NCBI GenBank assembly: GCA_017961295.1
Contig: JAGCXL010000034.1
Span: 1 to 51,854 of the forward strand
Length of the DNA: 51,854 nucleotides
From: Elusimicrobiaceae bacterium
Lineage (GTDB): Bacteria; Elusimicrobiota; Elusimicrobia; Elusimicrobiales; Elusimicrobiaceae
Direction: 5' to 3'
A model generated the notes under the pieces. The model ran no database searches. It had not been told where the DNA came from and saw only the letters and a program-made list of their open reading frames with translations. A program made the position numbers and the translations under genes. Position 1 is the first letter of the stretch, and each line of letters begins with the position of its first letter. This document shows, one piece after another, positions 32,938 through 44,426 of the stretch.

Positions 32938-35493
32938 TTACTCCTCCCATCTAATAAATAACGGCGTTAATACACTGGGTAGTGCATCGTTTTTTGGCAG
33001 TACGCGCAAAGCATAATCTTGCCGGCCGCTATTTTGCGGGGCCACAGCGGCTTCGTAGATATACGTTTCACCGTTTTTGCCGGTGTTTTTCATGGGGATA
33101 GTAGCCAGTTTTACAATGCCGCCCACGTTACCGCGCCGGCCCAAAAAAGCTTCCACTTGCACTTCTTCCGGCTTTAAATTACCCAACGATACTTGGGCTT
33201 TAAAGTGTACTTTGTCGCCCATTAAAATAGCTTCTTGCGGGGCGGCGGTAAGGTCTTTAATGCTTACACGGTACCAGTTATCGGCAATTTGCTTGCGCCA
33301 TGCGGATACGGCTTGTACTTTGCCGGGTTCATTTAATCCTAACCCGTAGTTGTGCGCCGGTACATAAAAGCGTTCGTAATATTCTTTGACCATGCGGTTG
33401 GTGTTGAAAACCGGGGCAATATGCTTGACCGATTCCTTCATCAAAGCCACCCAAGCCGCCGAGAAAGTTTCTTTGTCACTCTTGGCGTAATAGGCAGGGG
33501 CAATATCTTGTTCAATTAAGCTATACAAGGATTCGGCTTCCACGCTGTCGCGTTCTGCGTCGGATTTATAAGTTTCGTTTCCGCCGATAGACCACCCAAA
33601 ATCACAGGGGCCTACTTCATCCCACCAGCCGTCCAAAATAGATAGCGCAAGTGCCCCGTTTAGCGCGGCTTTCATACCGCTGGTGCCGCTGGCTTCCATG
33701 GGGCGGATCGGGTTATTAAGCCACACGTCAACCCCTTGCACCATATAGCGGGCTACGTTCATGTTGTAGTCTTCCACAAACACGATTTTGCCTTTAAAGC
33801 GCGGGTCGTTTTGCGTGAGGCTGACAATGAGTTTAATAAATTCTTTACCGGCAGTATCGGCCGGGTGAGCTTTACCCGCAAAAACAAACTGGACCGGGCG
33901 GGCCGGGTTGTTAATGATTTTGTCTAAGCGGTTTAAATCTTTAAATAGTAGCGTGGCACGTTTGTAGGTAGCAAAACGGCGTGCAAAACCAATGGTCAAT
34001 ACATCCGGGCGCAATACCTGCGATGCTTTTTTTACCGTCATTACGTCCATCCCTTGGCGTGTGAGTTGGCGTTGCAGACGGTTGCGTACCATGGTAATAA
34101 GTTTGTTTTTGCGAATCGTGTGCACATCCCACAGCTCCCCATCCGGGATATTGGACATTTTGTTCCAGGGTTCCGGTTCGGACGGATCAATGTATCCTAA
34201 TTGATTGTTGTTATACAAATATTTGCGGTACAAGTCGTTGAGTTCATGTGAAATCCACGACGAGCTGTGAATCCCGTTGGTAATGCTGGTAATCGGCACT
34301 TCTAATTTAGGCAAATTCGGCCATAAGTTGTGCCACATTTCGCGGCTGACTTCGCCATGTAATTTGGCAACTCCGTTGCAAAAAGCCGACAGGCGCAGCG
34401 CCACTACCGTCATACAATACGTAGGTGATTGCGGTGTTTCTTTGCCGATTTCTAAAAATGCATCCCACCCGATGCCCATTTCATTGGCGTAATATTCCAT
34501 GTATTTGCGTACGAGGGCCGGGTCAAAATGTTCGTTGCCGGCAATGACGGGGGTATGAGTTGTAAACACAGAGGTTGTCCATACTTTTTCCCGCGCTTGG
34601 TCAAAGGTGAGTTTTTCATTTTTCATGAGGTCAATGATACGCTGGAAAAGTAAGAACGCGCTGTGCCCTTCGTTAATATGATAAACAGTGGGGAAGATGC
34701 CCATGGCGGTTAAAGCTTTCACACCGCCGATACCGAGCACTACTTCTTGGCGGATGCGGTTTTCGCGGTCACCGCCGTAAAGTTTTTCGGTAATGACACG
34801 TTGCGCCGGGGTGTTTTCTTGCAAGTTGGTGTCTAACAAATAAAGCGAGGTGCGCCCTACCGGTACGCGCCACACGCAGGCTTTGACCGTTTCACCGCCT
34901 AACGGAATATCTACGATAATATCTTTGCCGTCTTTTTGCACGTGCTCTACGGGCATGTGGGCCCAATCGTTATCGGGGTATTCCTCGTTTTGCCAGCCTT
35001 CGCGGTTAATAAGCTGTTGCACATAGCCTTGTTTGTAAAACAAACCCACACCGATAATCGGCATACCCAGATCGCTGGCGGATTTGATGTGGTCCCCGGC
35101 CAGCATACCTAAACCACCGGAATAAATCGGCAGTCCCTCGCCGATACCATATTCCATAGAAAAATATGCGGTTAAGAGGTTGCCGTTTTCTTGGTGGTGG
35201 TCTTTATACCAAGTATGTTGTTCGTTTTTGTAGGCGTAGTAACTGTCTTTGACTTGATTTAATAAATTGACAAAGTTTTGGTCTTTGCTTAATTCTTCAA
35301 AGCGTTTTTGCGGCACACAACCTAAAAACCATTTGGGGTTGCGCTTGGCGGCGGTCCAAAGTTGCGGGTCAATTTGCACAAACAGTGCAATCGCGTGGGC
35401 GTTCCACGTAAACCACATATCACTGGCAAGTTCTTCTAAAAATTTGATGTTGTCCGGTAAATTGGGTTGGACATTAAACGAGTGGATTTTCAT
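32938..35493 (-). CDS. glgP: Alpha-glucan (glycogen/maltodextrin) phosphorylase
   Basis: An 851-residue GT35 phosphorylase releasing glucose-1-phosphate from storage glucan. The N-terminus (NIKFLEELASDMWFTWNAHA) is the DUF3417 region of the shorter TIGR02094 subfamily found in Thermotoga and many anaerobes. YFSMEYGIGEGLPIYSGGLG and VYHINEGHSAFLLF are family motifs, and the PLP lysine is K608 in GTSGMKAALNGAL. Its last codons encode the Shine-Dalgarno of the following frameshifted gene. No other glycogen gene is in the window. Confidence 0.94.
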   Translation of the reverse strand: MKIHSFNVQPNLPDNIKFLEELASDMWFTWNAHAIALFVQIDPQLWTAAKRNPKWFLGCVPQKRFEELSKDQNFVNLLNQVKDSYYAYKNEQHTWYKDHHQENGNLLTAYFSMEYGIGEGLPIYSGGLGMLAGDHIKSASDLGMPIIGVGLFYKQGYVQQLINREGWQNEEYPDNDWAHMPVEHVQKDGKDIIVDIPLGGETVKACVWRVPVGRTSLYLLDTNLQENTPAQRVITEKLYGGDRENRIRQEVVLGIGGVKALTAMGIFPTVYHINEGHSAFLLFQRIIDLMKNEKLTFDQAREKVWTTSVFTTHTPVIAGNEHFDPALVRKYMEYYANEMGIGWDAFLEIGKETPQSPTYCMTVVALRLSAFCNGVAKLHGEVSREMWHNLWPNLPKLEVPITSITNGIHSSSWISHELNDLYRKYLYNNNQLGYIDPSEPEPWNKMSNIPDGELWDVHTIRKNKLITMVRNRLQRQLTRQGMDVMTVKKASQVLRPDVLTIGFARRFATYKRATLLFKDLNRLDKIINNPARPVQFVFAGKAHPADTAGKEFIKLIVSLTQNDPRFKGKIVFVEDYNMNVARYMVQGVDVWLNNPIRPMEASGTSGMKAALNGALALSILDGWWDEVGPCDFGWSIGGNETYKSDAERDSVEAESLYSLIEQDIAPAYYAKSDKETFSAAWVALMKESVKHIAPVFNTNRMVKEYYERFYVPAHNYGLGLNEPGKVQAVSAWRKQIADNWYRVSIKDLTAAPQEAILMGDKVHFKAQVSLGNLKPEEVQVEAFLGRRGNVGGIVKLATIPMKNTGKNGETYIYEAAVAPQNSGRQDYALRVLPKNDALPSVLTPLFIRWEE

Positions 35494-35667
35494 AAATTCT
35501 CCCTGAAAAATAATATAGGTTTATTATATAAAAAAATATCTTTAAGGGGGGCATTGTTGTACCTGCAATTTTTACAAGAGGAGGATATCCTCGAACCCTG
35601 CGGGCCGACAACTCGGGGGTAACAAGCGTGAAAATCGTCCGGCTGATATATAGTAGTTTGGGTAATA
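35494..35667. other. Gene-free stretch with small inverted repeats, between glgP and the leader RNA
   Basis: It holds the glgP ribosome binding site, an AT-rich block, then a row of small hairpins: GAGGATATCCTC (35581-35592, from the preceding G), CCC-TGC-GGG and CCGA-CAAC-TCGG. AATCGTCCGG at 35633-35642 is repeated in the leader RNA at 35802-35811. I see no credible protein or tRNA in it. Confidence 0.4.
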
Positions 35668-35690
35668 TGTTATAATAAATATGTTATAAT
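35668..35690 (+). promoter_or_regulatory. Tandem extended -10 promoters for the leader RNA
   Basis: TGTTATAAT occurs twice, 35668-35676 and 35682-35690, 14 bp apart within a repeated ATATGTTATAATAAA block. Both are perfect -10 hexamers with the TGn extension. No clear -35 is seen. The downstream copy predicts a start near 35697. Confidence 0.65.
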
Positions 35691-35720
35691 AAAACAAAGT
35701 AGTACTTACAATTTGAAGAA

Positions 35721-35902
35721 GATTATTTGTTGAAGTGTGGGGGAAGCCCACACTGAGCAAAGGGAAGCTGTTTTCCCCGCGCAAATTTGCGGTCAACAAG
35801 TAATCGTCCGGTCTTACCCATTTCTTAATTGAAGTGGGTAGACGGCGATTATTTGTTAAGGGTTACCGCAAATTGCTTTTAACAAAGATCGCCGTCTTTT
35901 TT
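35721..35902 (+). ncRNA. Structured leader RNA, riboswitch-like attenuator upstream of a pilin gene
   Basis: Stem P1 pairs 35721-35733 (GATTATTTGTTGA) with 35793-35805 (13 bp, one G-U). Inside it are P2 (AGTGTGGG/CCCACACT, 35734-35754), P3 (GGGAA/TTCCC, 35762-35777) and P4 (CGCA/TGCG, 35780-35791), a four-way junction. The 3' strand of P1 can instead pair with a near copy of its partner at 35846-35857, as part of a long hairpin spanning 35795-35857. That hairpin excludes the terminator at 35840-35902. This is the layout of a transcription OFF riboswitch. I cannot match it to a known class; a plain regulatory sRNA is the alternative. Confidence 0.6.
35840..35902 (+). terminator. Switchable intrinsic terminator in the pilin leader
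   Basis: AGACGGCGAT (35840-35849) pairs with ATCGCCGTCT (35888-35897); above a small internal loop TTTGTTAA (35852-35859) pairs with TTAACAAA (35879-35886). T6 at 35897-35902 follows. Its left arm is shared with the alternative antiterminator hairpin. Confidence 0.85.
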
Positions 35903-35946
35903 GTTGGCTGAATTTGAAGTGATAAAAATAGGACTGGAGGTAGTTT

Positions 35947-36465
35947 ATGATGTACAACCAAAATACCCGGCGAGGTTTTACGCTTATTGAGCTGTTGGTA
36001 GTGGTTCTTATTATCGGCGTTTTAGCTGCTATTGCTGTGCCGCAGTATCAATTTGCTGTAGATAAAAGCCGAGTAGCACGATATTTAACCCGAATAAAAG
36101 ATTTAGTAAACGCACAACACGTATATTTTTTAGCCAATGGCGTATATGTATGTGATATGAGAAAGCTTGATATTGATTTGACAAAGCTATGTACTCTTGC
36201 AGGTACCGAGTATAATGAATTACGCTCTTGTGAGGGGGGACTATGGGGTGTAAATGCACGTGCCACAAGAAATGAGGACGGAGATTGTTCTGTATGGGCC
36301 ATCTCTTTGTATTATTGTGAGAAGGGATCCATTTGTTATCATGGTACGGATGCGACAGAAAAGCATTTTGACTTATGGTTTAGCATTAACGATGGAAGTG
36401 TGAAAAGCTGTAGTTCGTTCTCAACGCGCGGTCAAAGACTTTGTAAGTGGCTCAAACCGACCTAA
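35947..36465 (+). CDS. Type IV prepilin-like protein
   Basis: A 172-residue prepilin: leader MMYNQNTRRG, then FTLIELLVVVLIIGVLAAIA with Glu5 and a conserved PQYQFAVDKSR. The globular head is cysteine-rich and ends CSSFSTRGQRLCKWLKPT, a probable D-loop disulfide. A GGAGG site (35936-35940) serves ATG 35947 or 35950. Expression should depend on the leader and terminator just upstream. It stands alone without pilus assembly genes and could be a major or minor pilin or a secretion pseudopilin. Confidence 0.87.
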   Translation: MMYNQNTRRGFTLIELLVVVLIIGVLAAIAVPQYQFAVDKSRVARYLTRIKDLVNAQHVYFLANGVYVCDMRKLDIDLTKLCTLAGTEYNELRSCEGGLWGVNARATRNEDGDCSVWAISLYYCEKGSICYHGTDATEKHFDLWFSINDGSVKSCSSFSTRGQRLCKWLKPT

Positions 36466-36517: not shown

Positions 36518-37576
36518 TTATAATACCGCTGTCAAAATAAAGAAGTAGGCAATCATCAAGACTAAACCCAACCCAAACGCGGCTTTGACCCACTCTTTGC
36601 TTTTAATTCCCAGTTTAGAGGCGCAAATAATGTTGGGGATATTCCCCGGGATTAGCATCCCGCCGGAAACCACTAAGCTCATTAAGAGGAACGTGAGCGT
36701 GCGGTCGTCAATAATAGGGGTTACTTCAATAGCGGCTAAGGTAGCATTGTCTAGCACCGCAGAGAGCATGTTAATCCAGTAGAGCCAACCGGCACTTAAG
36801 TGAGTAATGGTTTTTAGAGCAAGCGGTTTTAATCCATCGCCCAAAAATACAAGGGCCACCACAAATAAATACACCTTGGCGGCGCGGATTACAATGCCTT
36901 TAATGGAATTATCTCCGCCGATTTGTACGGCTTTGGCTCCAGGTGCGTGGCAAATAGTACACTCGCGAATAGAGCTGGCCATACCCGCCATAAAAAGTAT
37001 ACCGCCCAGTACAAACCAACCTAAGTGTTGAATTAAGTAGAAAAATCCGGCGTGGTGGGGTGCACCCGAGAGTTTGGAAATAACCACCGTTCCCAATGGT
37101 TCCCCGATAGAGGTTAAAATGGCTCCCATCCCAATGGCATAACAGGAAAACGTAATTAGTTTAATGCGCCCTGCTCTTTCCAACGGGAGCATAACTGTGA
37201 TTTCAGACAAAATTAAAGCCGCAATAATGGCGGTAATAATACTGGACATAAGCCCCAAGATGAGCACAATTAAAAACAACGTCCACCGTAGCCCGATAGC
37301 TTTGACTGCTTTTTGGGTCAGTTTTTGCAAATGGGTGTTAAGGTAACGGAAAAGGAGCCCGGCAATCAGTACCGCCAGGGTAATTTTAATGGGGTCTTTT
37401 AAGGCGGTAAATACCAGATGCCCGCTCCACATATGCGAAACGGTGACCGCAAACGCACCGCAACAAAACAAAAAAGCTTCCAAATTTTCTTCTACTTTAT
37501 GAACGGTAAGAGGCAAAACAAGTACAACTACAATCAAAGCGGAAAGCAAAACGGTTTGTAAGGTGGAAAGTTCCAT
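36518..37576 (-). CDS. DUF1646 family membrane protein (putative ion transporter)
   Basis: A 352-residue protein with about ten membrane segments. EENLEAFLFCCGAFAVTVSH near the N-terminus, SSIITAIIAALILSEI, and GGMLIPGNIPNIICASKLGI near the C-terminus match my recollection of DUF1646, a family placed near cation/ion antiporters. A short loop with CTICHAPGAKA is unusual. No substrate can be given. AGGAG precedes the ATG. It is convergent with the pilin gene. Confidence 0.72.
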   Translation of the reverse strand: MELSTLQTVLLSALIVVVLVLPLTVHKVEENLEAFLFCCGAFAVTVSHMWSGHLVFTALKDPIKITLAVLIAGLLFRYLNTHLQKLTQKAVKAIGLRWTLFLIVLILGLMSSIITAIIAALILSEITVMLPLERAGRIKLITFSCYAIGMGAILTSIGEPLGTVVISKLSGAPHHAGFFYLIQHLGWFVLGGILFMAGMASSIRECTICHAPGAKAVQIGGDNSIKGIVIRAAKVYLFVVALVFLGDGLKPLALKTITHLSAGWLYWINMLSAVLDNATLAAIEVTPIIDDRTLTFLLMSLVVSGGMLIPGNIPNIICASKLGIKSKEWVKAAFGLGLVLMIAYFFILTAVL

Positions 37577-37729: not shown

Positions 37730-37829
37730 AAAACGTCTGTTTATACATAATGGTTGTTTTTATGCTAGGACAGCTTCGAAGTAAATAATTAATTTGAAGG
37801 TTACATATTCTAAAAAGGGAGATAAATTA

Positions 37830-40800
37830 ATGAACAGGAAACAGGGTAAAAGTACGTTATCCAAAACGATGGCGTATTTGATAAGCTGTGCAATGTTAGT
37901 AAGTAACGTAAGCCCGGCTTACGCAGCTTCTGACATTACCATTGATGATTTCGGGTCCGGCTCGCTTCATTATATCTCTGGTTATGCAAATACCGACTAT
38001 TTGTATGCCCGGGATGATGGATCGGCCTCCCCAAGCGATTATACACAAAGGTTTTCAAACTGGGTAGGTGACCCGTTTGACGATACGTTAACGATGAACG
38101 GCGGCGCATTGAACACCTATGGCTTAACGCAAAACGGTGCTTTGTATGCCAATAGCGGCAACATCACCGTAAATAGCGGACAATTAAACATTGCAAGCGG
38201 TTCCTACATCAGCGATGCTGCTAATTTAAGCCTGCTTTCCGGTTCTTTGTTGGTGCTTACGGGTGGTAATGTAACCATCAATGCAGGAGATTCTATTAAT
38301 TCCGGTGCTAACATTACAGCTTTTGACGGTAACTTGTCATTTACCGGTGGAACGCACTACATCGGCAGCGGGTCTAGTATCGCCAGCAATCTGAATATCA
38401 CAGACGGTACGGTTGAAGTGGCGAATGCCAATTCGTTACAAACCGACTTTAGTAACGCGGGCAATCTTACACTGGCCGGCGGTACGCAAGCCCATGCTAT
38501 TAGCGGAACCGGGAATGTGGCGATTACCGGAGATGTTACGAACACCGGTACTATCAGCCAAACGGATCTGAGCAACACCAGTACCTTTACTAACAACGGC
38601 ACTGTAAATGCAAATTTAACCAATGCCGGCGTATTGAAAGGAACCGGAAATATCACTACCAAAACCGGGGCATCGTCTAACACGGATGCTCTCTCCCAAA
38701 CGAACTTAACCAACAATGGTACGTTTGACAACAACGGACAAATTACATTAGCGGGCAGCTTAACTAACAATGAAGCTGCCACTTTTAACACCAATGCGGG
38801 GTTATTAGCTTCTGCAAACGGTGTTTCTAACGCAGGTATTTTGAATTTTACCGGTGGTACCAATACGAACGTAGTTACCGGGGACGGTACCCTCAATGTT
38901 ACGGGGGATTTAGAGAACCAAGAATCTATCTCTCAAAAAGATATTACCGTTGCAAGCGGTAAAGTAGTTACCACCAATGCTTCCAATATGACCGCTAGCG
39001 ATGCCATTACCAACGATGGTATTATTAACTACACGGCGGGTACCACTGCTAATATTATTAATGGTAACGGGCGCATTGATGTTACCGGATATGTAACCAA
39101 CAGTGGCGATATTGATCAAACCACTGTAAGCAACAGCGGTGTGTTCACAAACAATGGTACTGTAGATGCGAAGCTCGTCAATACAAATGCAATTGAAGGG
39201 ACGGGTTCTATCACTACCAAAGCCGGGGTTTCCTCCAACTCGGGAACGATTGAACAAGATTCTTTAACCAACAACGGTACGTTTGACAACAACGGCCATA
39301 TTACTCTAACGGGTGCTTTGACCAACAACAGTACCTTTAATACCCATGCGGACCTAGTTTCCGCGGCGGGCGGTATAGACAACCAAAGTGCTTTGAATAT
39401 CACCGGCGGTACAAACAAAAACGTGATTACCGGCGGTGGAACTACCTCTTTTACCAATAACGTTACCAACAGCGCTGCTATTACGCAAGCATTGGTTAAC
39501 AACAGTGGTAATTTAACGAACAACGCGCTTATTACTGCGGACGTTGTGAATAGTGGCACGTTGACTAGTAACGGGGCCAATATTAACGGGGCTATCGGAA
39601 ACACCGGTTCTTATGTTATCACCGATGGCAATAACGCCAATGATATTATCGGTGCGGGCGGTACAACTTCTATTTTGGGGGATACCACCAATACCGGTAC
39701 CATCATGCAAGAATCGTTGAAAATTGCCAACAGCGGTAGTTTTACGACTGATGCGGAATCTGTAGTAGCATCCGTTACCAACGATGGCAGATTGACGTGG
39801 AACGCGGGTGCCGCTAACGAGAATGTGATTAACGGTTCTGGTCAATTAGACATTACCGGTGGTGATATTGTCAATAGTGCTTCTATTAAACAAAATAAGA
39901 TTAAAATCGCTGGCGGTTCTTTAACTAGCGACGCTGACTTATTGGCTTCTACCAATGGTATTACCAACAATGTAGCGGACGGCTTAACCCTAACGGGTGG
40001 CACAAACTCCAACGTGATTGACGGTACGGGTTCCATGTCCATTTCTGGGGATGTAACGAACCAAGCCGCAATCGGACAAGATTCTATTACCGTCAGCAAC
40101 GGTACGTTAACCACCGCGGCCGACTTACTTACCGCCGCGAACGGCATTACCAACAATAGTGCCATTTCTTTCACAGGTGGTGACAACAATAATGAAATTA
40201 CCGGTACCGGTACTACACTCATTGATGGAACCGTACAAAACTTGGCGGACGTGTATACCAAAGTCCAGGTCAATACGGGTGCCCATTACGGTACTGCTAC
40301 CGACGTGCAAGCCCAAATAGACAACCGCGGCACCACGGACCTTATTGATGTCGACATCTTAGCCGGAGGTAAGATTTCCGGTACAGGTACTACCAACATC
40401 TTAGGGGATACAGTTAACAACAACAGCATTTCCCAAAGTGCCTTGAATATTGCTGCGGGTGGTTCCTTAACCACTAACAGCCAAAGTGTTGAAGCAGCCG
40501 TTACCAACGACGGAAACTTAATTTGGAATGCAGGTAACTCCAATGACAACGTCATCAGCGGTAGCGGTGCTTTGAATATCGCCGGCGGAAACATTACCAA
40601 TAATGCCGCTATTAGTCAAGGCAGCATTAGCATTACCGGCGGTAGTTTGACCTCTAATGCTGACTTGCTTGCTTCCGTTGCAGGCATTACCAATGACACT
40701 GCTTTAACCCTCAATGGCGGTACTAATACCAACGATATTACCGGTACGGGTGCTTTGACCACACAAGGCGAAGTAACCAACCAAGCTGCTATTGACCAAA

Positions 40801-43800
40801 CCACTCTTATCAATGATGGTACTTTGCTCAACGCAGGAACCATCAAAGCCAATGTAACCAACAACGGTAATTTGGCCAGTGATGCGGACGATATTGAAGG
40901 GAATATCGCCAACGAAGGTACGTATGCAATTACGGACGGCGATAACACCAACAATATTACCGGTGAGGGTGATTTACAGATCCTGGGCAAAACTGCTAAC
41001 AATGCAACCATTCACCAAGATACTATTACCATTAATACAGGTGCTACATTGGTAGCCGCAAATATGGGTAATATTACGACCTCTACGAAGATTGATAATG
41101 CCGGTGTTTTTGAAATGCAAGGCGGTACCAACAGTAACGTGATTGAGGGTGACTTCGGTGCATTAAAAGTAACTGGAGCAGTAACCAATACCTCTGGGGT
41201 AAACATCAAGCAAGATAATTTAGATATTGCCACGTTGGGTAGTTTGACGGCGGATGCGGATGACTTGAAAACCGTAAACGGTATTACCAACGCGGGTGCT
41301 TTGACTTTGGGGAACGGTACCACCGCTAATGCGATTAGCGGAAGCGGTAAGTTAACGATTGCTTCCGGTGCGGATGTGACCAACACAGGAAACATTGATC
41401 AAAAGTCCTTAACCAATAACGGGACCTTTACCTCTAAGGCCGACCTATTGGCCTTTGCCAACGGTATTGCTAACAGCAATACGTTGAACTTAACCGGTGG
41501 TACGAATAACAATGTCATTACGGACAATACGGGTACTACCAACTTTACCGGTGATGTTATCAACAACGGTGCCATTGAGCAAGCCGCTGTTACTAATGAT
41601 ACCGGCGTATTAACCAACAATGCCGCTATTGATGCTGCTTTTACCAATAATGGTGGGACGGTCAATAACGAAGCAGCCATTACCGGTGCCATTACCAATA
41701 CCGGCACGATTAACTCTACCGCAGACAACTTGAACGGTGCCGTAACAAACGACGGTACGTTGAACGTCGCCGGCGGTTTAGTAAAAGGTGACATCACCAC
41801 TACGGTGACGGACAGTACCATGAACATTACCGATAACTTGATCAACGATTATAGCATTGAACAAGCTACGGTGTATAACACTGCCCACTTTACCAACAGA
41901 GGTGCGATTACAGCTGACCTTGACAACGAAGGGATGATTGATAATACGGCTGCTATTGTGGGTAACATTACCAACCACAACAACGGTACGATCGACTCTT
42001 CCGCTGACTATTTGCAAGGGCCTATCGCCAACGATGGTACGCTTAATATCGCGGGCGGAACGATGCAAGATGTTGTTACGGGTTCCGGCGAAATGAACAT
42101 CATCGATGACTTGAACACCAATGACTTTACCATTGAACAAGGCAGTGTAACCAACGATGCGGTCTTAACTAATACTGCTGCTATTACCGCAACTACCATT
42201 ACCAATAACGGTACGATTAAGGGTAAAGCGGCTGATTTAATAGCCTCTGGCGGTATTACAAATGACGGAATTTTAGAATTTAATGCAGCCTCTACGGGCG
42301 TCAGCGCAATCAGCGGCGCCGGTAACGTAGAAGTAACGGCTAACACTACCTTGACGGGTAGTAATACCTATACGGGTACGACTTTGATTGACGGCGCTGA
42401 CTTAACGATTGCCGGTCAAAACAATATCGGCTCCGGGGATGTATTGTTCGCCAACAACGGCTTGTTAATCGCGGCAGGTTCGTTGAGTAACAACTTGCGC
42501 GGCAACGCTGCTACGGAAGATGTTCTCGTACAAAACGACGCTGCTTTAACCTTAAACGGTACGATTGGTTCCGCGGCTGATTTCCGTAAATCAGGTGCCG
42601 GAACTATGACCTTGGCTATGGCTTCCAACAACTACACAGGAAGTACCTATGTAGATGAAGGAACCTTAGTAGGAAATACGCAAAATATCAAAAATACTGT
42701 CAAAGGTGCTGCTGATACAACGGTTGAATTTACCGATACTACCGATGCGGTACTGAACGAAATTGACACTCTGGGCAATTTTGTCCAAAGTGGCAGTGCT
42801 GTTTTGAACATATCCGATAATGCCTTTAGCGCAAAACAAGCGGATATTAACGCCGGTACTTTTGCTGCTAACCGTGATGTAACGGTTACTACTGCGTTAA
42901 ACGTGAACGACGGTGCCACCTTGCGCGGTAACGGAAATATTTCCGGTACAGTAAATGTAAATAACGGCGGGACCATTGCCCCCGGCAATAGTATTGATAC
43001 GTTGACAATTACGGGGGATGTAAACTTCGCTTCCGGTAGTACAACGGCTATTGAAATTAATGAAACTCCTGCAAGTGATAAATTGGTCATTACAGGTAAT
43101 GCCAATATCGCTAGCGGAGCTAATTTAGCAGTATCCAACGAAAACGGAAGATACTTTGAATGGAAGTCGTTTGAAATCGTCGATGCCGGTAACGTGGCGG
43201 GCGAATTTACGTACGACGGTACTATTACCGACTACGATGCCAGCCGTATTGACGTAGAAGTAGATTACAGTGATCCGACAAAGGTCGTTTTATTGGCTAA
43301 ACGTAAAGCCACCGATTATACCGGAACGACCAGCTTATCGCGCAACCAAAGCGAAGTAGCTCGTGCGATAGATGCTGTTTCTACCGGTTATGAAGGTGAT
43401 ATTACCAATGCCTTGTTGCAATATGAACAATTGGGTGGCTTAAATCCGCAAGGGGTTACACTTATTAACGCGGCATCTACCTTGCAATCTGCCTTAGATG
43501 ATACGGACGGCGTGTTGTATGCCAATAGTGCGTTGACTCCGTTGTTTAATGCTAAGACGGCTCATGTATATGACCGTATTGCTAAACGCAATCCCTCGGC
43601 CGGCAAATGCTCTACCTGCCATGATAACGTGTGGGCGGAGTATTATAGCCAGTACGATAAAGTATATGCAGATGCCAATTCACCGCGCTTTACCAATAAC
43701 ATGACCGGTGTATTAGTAGGGTATGATCGTTCTTCCGATGAGGCACTCTTAGGTGTGTACGGCGGTGCCGGTAAGAGCGATTTGCGCCAACAAAACGATG

Positions 43801-44426
43801 CAATGGATATTGATGACGTATCCCTGGGTATTTACGGTGGATACAGACCGGGCAATTGGGTCCTCAAAGGAACCTTGTTCGGGGGTTATCAAACCTATCA
43901 TGGTAAACGTCGCATTGATTTCATGGCACGTAATGCGGAAGGTAAATATCATGGTTTGAATATGGCCTTAGATTTGGAAGGCGGTTATAACATCGCCGTC
44001 TATGACTGGCTCAACCTCAAACCTTTTGCCGGAGTATTGGGTAACTACACGCACTTAGAATCCTTTACGGAAACGGGTGCAGGTGCCCTTAACTTACACG
44101 TAGAAAGCAAAAACCAGTTCAACACACAAGCCCGTTTAGGGGTGCAGTTGGAAGGAAAAATCGGCAAGAGATTCAACTGGTACGGTTCTGCCGCTGTTAA
44201 ACAGTTCATCGGCGGTGATTATGCCAAACTGCATATGTCTTTGGACTTGCCCGGAACACGCATGGAAATTATCAGTGCTGAGCTGGGCCGCACCTACTTT
44301 AGCGGTCAAGTGGGCGTAAGTTATGCGCTTACCAACCACTGGACGGTCTTTGGTAACTTAGACACCGGTGTGAACAACAAGTCCGCTAACTGCTACGGTA
44401 ACGTAGGTTTAGCATATGCGTGGTAA
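37830..44426 (+). CDS. Giant repeat-containing type Va autotransporter
   Basis: A 2198-residue surface protein. The signal peptide covers about 1-34 (MAYLISCAMLVSNVSPAYA). The passenger is Asn/Thr/Gly-rich beta-helix: about 17 degenerate repeats at about 215-1500, then autotransporter-associated strand repeats (TGSNTYTGTTLIDGA, SNNYTGSTYVDEGTLVG) and a PGNS motif near 1715. A helical linker, then C1927-S-T-C-H1931, leads into the C-terminal barrel (about 1932-2198) ending in Trp. An in-frame TTG at 37794 precedes the signal; I use ATG 37830 with AAGGGAG upstream. Likely adhesin or surface layer; function unproven. No protease motif is seen. Confidence 0.9.
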   Translation: MNRKQGKSTLSKTMAYLISCAMLVSNVSPAYAASDITIDDFGSGSLHYISGYANTDYLYARDDGSASPSDYTQRFSNWVGDPFDDTLTMNGGALNTYGLTQNGALYANSGNITVNSGQLNIASGSYISDAANLSLLSGSLLVLTGGNVTINAGDSINSGANITAFDGNLSFTGGTHYIGSGSSIASNLNITDGTVEVANANSLQTDFSNAGNLTLAGGTQAHAISGTGNVAITGDVTNTGTISQTDLSNTSTFTNNGTVNANLTNAGVLKGTGNITTKTGASSNTDALSQTNLTNNGTFDNNGQITLAGSLTNNEAATFNTNAGLLASANGVSNAGILNFTGGTNTNVVTGDGTLNVTGDLENQESISQKDITVASGKVVTTNASNMTASDAITNDGIINYTAGTTANIINGNGRIDVTGYVTNSGDIDQTTVSNSGVFTNNGTVDAKLVNTNAIEGTGSITTKAGVSSNSGTIEQDSLTNNGTFDNNGHITLTGALTNNSTFNTHADLVSAAGGIDNQSALNITGGTNKNVITGGGTTSFTNNVTNSAAITQALVNNSGNLTNNALITADVVNSGTLTSNGANINGAIGNTGSYVITDGNNANDIIGAGGTTSILGDTTNTGTIMQESLKIANSGSFTTDAESVVASVTNDGRLTWNAGAANENVINGSGQLDITGGDIVNSASIKQNKIKIAGGSLTSDADLLASTNGITNNVADGLTLTGGTNSNVIDGTGSMSISGDVTNQAAIGQDSITVSNGTLTTAADLLTAANGITNNSAISFTGGDNNNEITGTGTTLIDGTVQNLADVYTKVQVNTGAHYGTATDVQAQIDNRGTTDLIDVDILAGGKISGTGTTNILGDTVNNNSISQSALNIAAGGSLTTNSQSVEAAVTNDGNLIWNAGNSNDNVISGSGALNIAGGNITNNAAISQGSISITGGSLTSNADLLASVAGITNDTALTLNGGTNTNDITGTGALTTQGEVTNQAAIDQTTLINDGTLLNAGTIKANVTNNGNLASDADDIEGNIANEGTYAITDGDNTNNITGEGDLQILGKTANNATIHQDTITINTGATLVAANMGNITTSTKIDNAGVFEMQGGTNSNVIEGDFGALKVTGAVTNTSGVNIKQDNLDIATLGSLTADADDLKTVNGITNAGALTLGNGTTANAISGSGKLTIASGADVTNTGNIDQKSLTNNGTFTSKADLLAFANGIANSNTLNLTGGTNNNVITDNTGTTNFTGDVINNGAIEQAAVTNDTGVLTNNAAIDAAFTNNGGTVNNEAAITGAITNTGTINSTADNLNGAVTNDGTLNVAGGLVKGDITTTVTDSTMNITDNLINDYSIEQATVYNTAHFTNRGAITADLDNEGMIDNTAAIVGNITNHNNGTIDSSADYLQGPIANDGTLNIAGGTMQDVVTGSGEMNIIDDLNTNDFTIEQGSVTNDAVLTNTAAITATTITNNGTIKGKAADLIASGGITNDGILEFNAASTGVSAISGAGNVEVTANTTLTGSNTYTGTTLIDGADLTIAGQNNIGSGDVLFANNGLLIAAGSLSNNLRGNAATEDVLVQNDAALTLNGTIGSAADFRKSGAGTMTLAMASNNYTGSTYVDEGTLVGNTQNIKNTVKGAADTTVEFTDTTDAVLNEIDTLGNFVQSGSAVLNISDNAFSAKQADINAGTFAANRDVTVTTALNVNDGATLRGNGNISGTVNVNNGGTIAPGNSIDTLTITGDVNFASGSTTAIEINETPASDKLVITGNANIASGANLAVSNENGRYFEWKSFEIVDAGNVAGEFTYDGTITDYDASRIDVEVDYSDPTKVVLLAKRKATDYTGTTSLSRNQSEVARAIDAVSTGYEGDITNALLQYEQLGGLNPQGVTLINAASTLQSALDDTDGVLYANSALTPLFNAKTAHVYDRIAKRNPSAGKCSTCHDNVWAEYYSQYDKVYADANSPRFTNNMTGVLVGYDRSSDEALLGVYGGAGKSDLRQQNDAMDIDDVSLGIYGGYRPGNWVLKGTLFGGYQTYHGKRRIDFMARNAEGKYHGLNMALDLEGGYNIAVYDWLNLKPFAGVLGNYTHLESFTETGAGALNLHVESKNQFNTQARLGVQLEGKIGKRFNWYGSAAVKQFIGGDYAKLHMSLDLPGTRMEIISAELGRTYFSGQVGVSYALTNHWTVFGNLDTGVNNKSANCYGNVGLAYAW
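38476..42330 (+). repeat. About 17 degenerate protein-coding repeats in the autotransporter passenger
   Basis: Units of roughly 60-80 residues share the core G-G-T-N-x-N-x-I-x-G-x-G-x-L-x-I-x-G-D-V-T-N-x3-I-x-Q, often followed by LTNNGTF or ADLLASANGITN. The repeats are strong at protein level but diverged in DNA, so they are old rather than freshly expanded, apart from some closer pairs such as the units at about 38710 and 39270 (NNGTFDNNGxIT). Confidence 0.8.

Follow-up and report, generated by a model that had tools for sequence, protein, structure and literature searches.

Transcription attenuators of the trp type are built on three competing pairings (1:2, 2:3 and 3:4) among four RNA segments, with an intrinsic terminator as the last of them. 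In T-box leaders and other antiterminator riboswitches, a large structured 5′ domain feeds the choice between antiterminator and terminator. In front of a pilin gene, a related decision is taken by Cdi-2-4, a class II c-di-GMP riboswitch which precedes pilA1 of Clostridioides difficile and acts as an ON switch (PMC6366702).

Here, we analyse a leader at positions 35697-35902 of the window, i.e. the whole stretch of 51,854 nucleotides under study; all window features given below lie on the + strand. The likeness to Cdi-2-4 is that of a leader located before a type IV pilin gene which chooses between an intrinsic terminator and read-through (PMC6366702). However, whereas Cdi-2-4 is an ON switch, the Elusimicrobiota leader is predicted to be terminated in the form in which its helix P1 is closed. 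Covariance-model searches against Rfam gave no family at the leader, so that it carries no known c-di-GMP aptamer. Cdi-2-4 is the nearest functional analogue that we found in print, yet it is a different RNA.

With the trp-type attenuators, the leader shares the logic of three pairings among four segments. In contrast to them, the window copy has no leader peptide over segment 1, two hairpins (P2 and P3) are placed between segments 1 and 2, and a locus-specific helix, here called the ‘barcode’, links the junction to the terminator loop. To our knowledge, no barcode-type helix is present in Cdi-2-4. A structured 5′ domain ahead of the antiterminator/terminator choice also recalls the T-box leaders, but the Elusimicrobiota leader matches neither the Rfam T-box model nor that of any riboswitch. 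We propose that it is a cis-acting transcription attenuator RNA of the strand-exchange type, a model to which we assign a probability of about 80%.

Pairing scheme of the leader

The predicted transcript starts at about 35697, downstream of an extended -10 promoter-like box (TGTTATAAT, 35682-35690) which is present in a second copy at 35668-35676. A sigma-70 pair scan gives no call for the box at 35682-35690. In many relatives, a perfect TATAAT is found 15-30 nt 5′ of segment 1. Directly 5′ of this segment, the box TACAATTTG (35707-35715) is conserved in many relatives and several subtypes. A tandem duplicate (TATGTTATAATAAA) occupies 35666-35693 and presents two TATAAT boxes 14 bp apart, 5′ of the leader. 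Within the genus, the motif CGTACGCG recurs near promoters, 5′ of the leader at loci L072, L087 and L091 and in intergenic regions at L193, L194 and L206.

Segment 1 (35721-35733, GATTATTTGTTGA) is complementary to the strand 35793-35805 (TCAACAAGTAATC) over 13 pairs, including one G-U, which form P1. Two hairpins follow segment 1: P2 (35735-35753; stem 35735-35741/35747-35753, loop GGAAG) and P3 (35762-35777; GGGAA/TTCCC), with a GC/GC pairing at the base of P3 (35757-35758 with 35781-35782) that is conserved in the alignment. Segment 2 (35793-35808) comprises both the 3′ strand of P1 and the 5′ strand of the antiterminator, AT (35795-35808). Its part 35795-35806 is complementary to 35846-35857 (CGATTATTTGTT), which belongs to segment 3 (35840-35864). 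This segment is the left arm of the terminator, T, and its portion 35844-35857 doubles as the 3′ strand of AT, the tip of which is formed by hairpin P5 (35816-35839). Segment 4 (35875-35902) supplies the right arm of T and the T-run.

The terminator (35840-35902) is a G+C-rich hairpin which runs out in TTTTTT, on the same strand as the downstream gene and about 45 bp 5′ of its start codon. It goes uncalled in a simple scan for terminators that allows loops of up to 8, perhaps because its own loop of about 10 nt is too long. The whole region 35697-35902 folds at -82.4 kcal/mol compared with a mean of -49.1 (sd 4.2) for 200 dinucleotide-preserving shuffles, none of which folds as well (z -8.0).

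A further helix of 9-12 bp, the barcode, is absent from the account given by the sequence-only reading. Its 5′ strand (35781-35793, with a bulged A at 35783) pairs with 35865-35876, i.e. the terminator loop (ACCGCAAATT) plus the two bases that follow it. The 5′ strand was previously assigned to a third hairpin; its pairing with the loop region lengthens the antiterminator hairpin, which spans about 35781-35876. The earlier description of the locus is thus modified in two places. Of the junction of three hairpins, P2 and P3 are retained, whereas the third one, around GCAAATTTGC, is particular to the window copy and unconserved. Likewise, the pairing within an antiterminator hairpin at 35795-35857 is correct but its extent is not. 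The dual complementarity of segment 2 and the strong terminator, both pointed out in the same reading, are confirmed; the terminator has its T-run at the end and arms that covary in relatives.

An apparently undescribed family with competing helices

About 115 relatives were collected, which form a family of leaders of ~190 bases, and the helices could be assessed by comparison. A first alignment of 14 copies found by DNA similarity was made with plain MAFFT, free of structural information. In this alignment, 91.6% of the cells pair for the antiterminator fold, with 28 pairs showing double changes, whereas sliding the partners leaves 40-47% paired. The barcode alone is 95.8% paired and has 7 double-changed pairs. 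From this alignment and the antiterminator structure, we made the covariance model R1, a short-calibrated model whose E-values are rough. As P1 and T were left out of it, the support for these two helices in later matches is not circular. Conversely, the matches were selected for AT and barcode pairing, for which the 14-sequence alignment provides the independent test.

Among 95 distinct sequences, the set P1, P2, P3, P5, T and barcode is 91.8% paired, with 1201 double-changed cells compared with 330 in shuffles; the antiterminator fold reaches 94.5% overall. By helix, the paired fraction is 89.6% for P1 (double changes in 8/12 pairs), 98.2% for P2 (7/7), 91% for P3 (6/6), 94% for P5 (9/9), 92.7% for AT, 96.4% for the barcode (10/10 core pairs) and 75-97% for the helices of T (10/17 pairs). 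Compensatory changes occur in P1, T, AT and barcode, at values reached by none of 500 shuffles, which are phylogeny-blind controls. In addition, the T-run is conserved across 94 aligned copies. P1 (1:2), AT (2:3) and T (3:4) compete mutually for their strands, and all three covary; both pairings of segment 2 and those of segment 3 are among them. A conserved pairing incompatible with the terminator is thereby present, as the AT helix and the barcode covary. The AT pair in alignment columns 119:256 (35807 with 35845), which lies outside P1, shows 28 double changes and 2 unpaired cells, and AT is therefore more than a by-product of near-repeats in segments 1 and 3. The covariation check in homologues proposed earlier, here run by pair counting, bears out the competing helices.

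The strongest covariation among the helices is that of the barcode. Barcodes are specific to their locus: 48 different 5′ sequences are found among 65. With its own partner, the barcode is paired 9/9 in 60 of the 65 cases, compared with 1.7% when other partners are used. Where one genome carries nine copies, each barcode pairs 9/9 with itself only. One subtype (L084, L118, L121 and L129) carries a conserved barcode, CTTTGGAA or CTTTGGAG, and stands 5′ of a conserved protein of 76-78 aa, whose L121 member has no family in a Pfam scan.

The family is restricted to one phylum. When 61 related genomes were searched at the DNA level, clear copies turned up in several that belong to the same genus, with as many as several per genome. 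With the covariance model, 52 of the 149 genomes from the order contain copies, and these genomes all belong to Elusimicrobiaceae, the family of the window; for the phylum, the count is 62 of 341, exclusively Elusimicrobiaceae and Endomicrobiaceae. Their hosts are gut Elusimicrobium/Elusimicrobiaceae and termite-gut Endomicrobium, mostly represented by metagenome assemblies. A pattern scan of 84,980 species yielded 31 matches, 26 of which belong to Elusimicrobiota and fit the model (one ends at a contig end). The five others (Bacteroidales, Paraprevotella, Clostridia, Levilinea and Maribacter) do not fit the covariance model and were rejected. Phage and plasmid collections gave no match to the leader; a single pattern match in a viral contig lies inside a coding gene, does not fit the model and is attributed to chance.

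Two arrangements deviate from the usual single full copy. At L070, a single gene is preceded by two full tandem copies (1266-1461 and 1501-1695, - strand) with about 40 bp between them. At L043 (2692-2793, - strand; genome G026), the copy stops right after P1, is devoid of a terminator and abuts the uvrB start codon; it is either left over from a deletion or a translational variant.

The assertion that the leader resembles no known family is upheld. An Rfam 15 cmscan of the window at the gathering threshold finds no family at the leader, and a scan of 35400-36100 relaxed to E 10 returns nothing there beyond two evident chance hits. In 20 diverse relatives, the leader again has no Rfam match, and three weak hits fall elsewhere in the loci. 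We rejected the weak hits (mir-7 and NRON; Leu_leader and others elsewhere in the loci) as chance. A literature search, which took in few subscription papers so that an earlier description is possible, retrieved nothing joining Elusimicrobi- terms, pilin and riboswitch, nor anything on such RNAs. The leader is thus apparently one copy of an undescribed RNA family.

Predicted strand exchange and what may set it

We infer that the RNA is made and that it terminates in the cell. During transcription, the first pairing would be that of segments 1 and 2 in P1, by which a three-way junction with P2 and P3 is closed. With the emergence of segment 3 and the barcode, the latter would serve as a toehold from which segment 3 could draw segment 2 out of P1, forming an antiterminator of roughly 25 bp. 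Segment 4, emerging last, could reclaim segment 3 for the terminator, and P1 would re-form. If P1 holds, either because something binds or stabilises the junction or by folding kinetics, the terminator would form and the gene would be off; a persisting antiterminator would allow the gene to be read.

Minimum-free-energy folds are consistent with this order. Transcripts cut after segment 2 contain P1 in 92 of 94 cases, and those stopped before segment 4 contain AT plus barcode in 92 of 94, with P1 left in a single one. For the full-length molecules (n=94), P1 and T are predicted in 59 and AT in 29, and forcing the barcode pairs costs 5 kcal/mol on average; as the ViennaRNA state energies lie a few kcal/mol apart and pseudoknots are ignored, the winning state is not reliably predicted by these numbers. 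The stage-wise folds indicate that the RNA can go from P1 to AT and then to T, with a close final choice.

Some signal would presumably bias this choice. Five alternative readings were weighed. In the first, a special case of the attenuator, the P1-P2-P3 junction would be the binding site of a small molecule that stabilises P1 and turns the gene off. The closed junction coupled to an expression platform agrees with such a true riboswitch, the surface-gene target set resembles that of c-di-GMP riboswitches, and the last G of the P2 loop (invariant in all copies), the A after P1 and the GC/GC below P3 are conserved. Together with a bulged A, however, these are nearly all the conserved unpaired bases that the P1-P2-P3 domain offers, few of its unpaired positions reaching 90% identity. 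In addition, a variable 10-nt strand runs within the junction, and no Rfam relation to a known aptamer was found. The sequence-only reading had proposed an OFF riboswitch: its attenuator logic of strand exchange before a prepilin gene stands, and by the features tested the leader is classed as an attenuator, whereas a riboswitch is a hypothesis. We regard a metabolite switch as possible, although with clearly less than even odds. So small a set of conserved unpaired bases is scant for a metabolite pocket, and control by a protein or by the ribosome, or the absence of a dedicated signal, are serious rivals to a riboswitch.

Covarying helices with little sequence conservation are usual for RNAs recognised by structure-reading proteins. 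An RNA-binding regulator which sits on P2/P3 or on P1 and selects terminator or antiterminator would fit this pattern, as well as the invariant last G of the P2 loop, a loop that is mostly GNAAG in the subtype of the window. We consider such a protein-binding attenuator rather unlikely.

Slightly less probable still is a leader devoid of any dedicated signal, in which two nearly iso-energetic folds lead to a kinetically set partial read-through, i.e. noisy or low expression of surface genes for bet-hedging or dosage. The split of the full-length folds and the cost of the barcode pairs point in this direction, and the downstream pilins, outer-membrane proteins, glycosyltransferases and methylases are of kinds often varied in bacteria. 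Against this, the conserved P2-P3 domain would be superfluous in a simple timer.

A ribosome-coupled attenuator akin to the trp leader is improbable, even though the segment order 1:2, 2:3 and 3:4 is that of trp-type leaders and 9 of 20 Endomicrobia copies carry, just upstream, a Shine-Dalgarno sequence and then a start codon directly followed by a stop. In the window, the region 35697-35792, from the predicted start to segment 2, contains neither an ATG nor a Shine-Dalgarno sequence, and thus no leader peptide ORF over segment 1. An upstream survey of the relatives revealed no conserved leader peptide across this segment either, and P2 and P3 covary as RNA helices. In the nine copies (L173, L174, L178, L179, L183-L186 and L189), the start-stop (ATGTAA/ATGTGA) lies 10-13 nt after a Shine-Dalgarno-like stretch and about 19-38 nt before the model start, mostly followed by a small hairpin, e.g. 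AAGCC...GGCTT. Among the Elusimicrobiaceae copies whose promoter is distal, many have AGGAG at the place of the start-stop, devoid of an ATG.

Lastly, a mobile DNA repeat (MITE/REP-like) or palindromic recombination site in place of a regulator is very improbable: the copies are dispersed, several per genome and once in tandem, and the leader and pilin gene occupy a site that is empty in relatives, but the copies are divergent with compensatory changes, share the strand of a downstream gene and mostly lie close before it, keep the T-run after the last helix and have no phage or plasmid match beyond the chance viral one. An identity as integron attC or MITE was rejected on the grounds of fixed orientation, divergence and T-run.

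Target genes, origin and significance

The presumed cis target of the attenuator in the window is a type IV pilin-like gene (35947-36465) with a Shine-Dalgarno GGAGG at 35936-35940; it encodes 172 aa with an N-terminal methylation motif (PF07963, E 4.6e-9). The second copy of the leader in the host genome (C19:36954-37138) also precedes a pilin. In the family, the called downstream genes are on the strand of the leader, and most copies have a gene with a ribosome site whose start codon is 17-70 nt away; some copies are 100-360 nt from a called ORF. Where a gene is called downstream of an Elusimicrobiaceae copy (87 cases), it is a pilin in at least 51, whereas none of the 20 Endomicrobia copies examined has a recognised pilin behind it. 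Other targets identified by Pfam are outer-membrane beta-barrels, a sulfatase-family enzyme, GT8 and GT61 glycosyltransferases, an EcoRI-type methylase, a DNA methylase with a weak type I R-like region and a PH-domain protein; several further downstream proteins have no Pfam family. The host genome (897 kb) has a large set of 32 genes with a prepilin N-terminal motif, and the leader precedes 2 of the 32. Given this fraction and the other targets in relatives, the leader is not specific to pilins.

At the window site, promoter, leader and pilin gene all reside in the gap between a glycogen-phosphorylase-like gene (32938-35493) and a transporter gene (36518-37576). In about 20 relatives, these two genes adjoin each other with a gap of about 95-130 bp. 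The simplest reading is that promoter, leader and pilin were gained together; a loss in all other relatives is less likely. Past the transporter gene, the window encodes a repetitive, autotransporter-like surface protein of 2210 aa (37794-44426, + strand).

More tentatively, and with a little less than an even chance in our view, the barcode toehold switch with its locus-specific helix may be a new class of regulatory RNA in gut Elusimicrobiota, which would govern dispersed surface and DNA-modification genes by a common signal or by a built-in near-balance. If our interpretation is true, a little-studied phylum would harbour a large RNA family, as yet undescribed, in which three helices that exclude one another all covary strongly. 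As the presumed toehold differs by locus while the rest is conserved, the family would offer a test case for co-transcriptional strand exchange. Furthermore, it would give a first handle on the control of many pilins and other surface genes in gut Elusimicrobiota.
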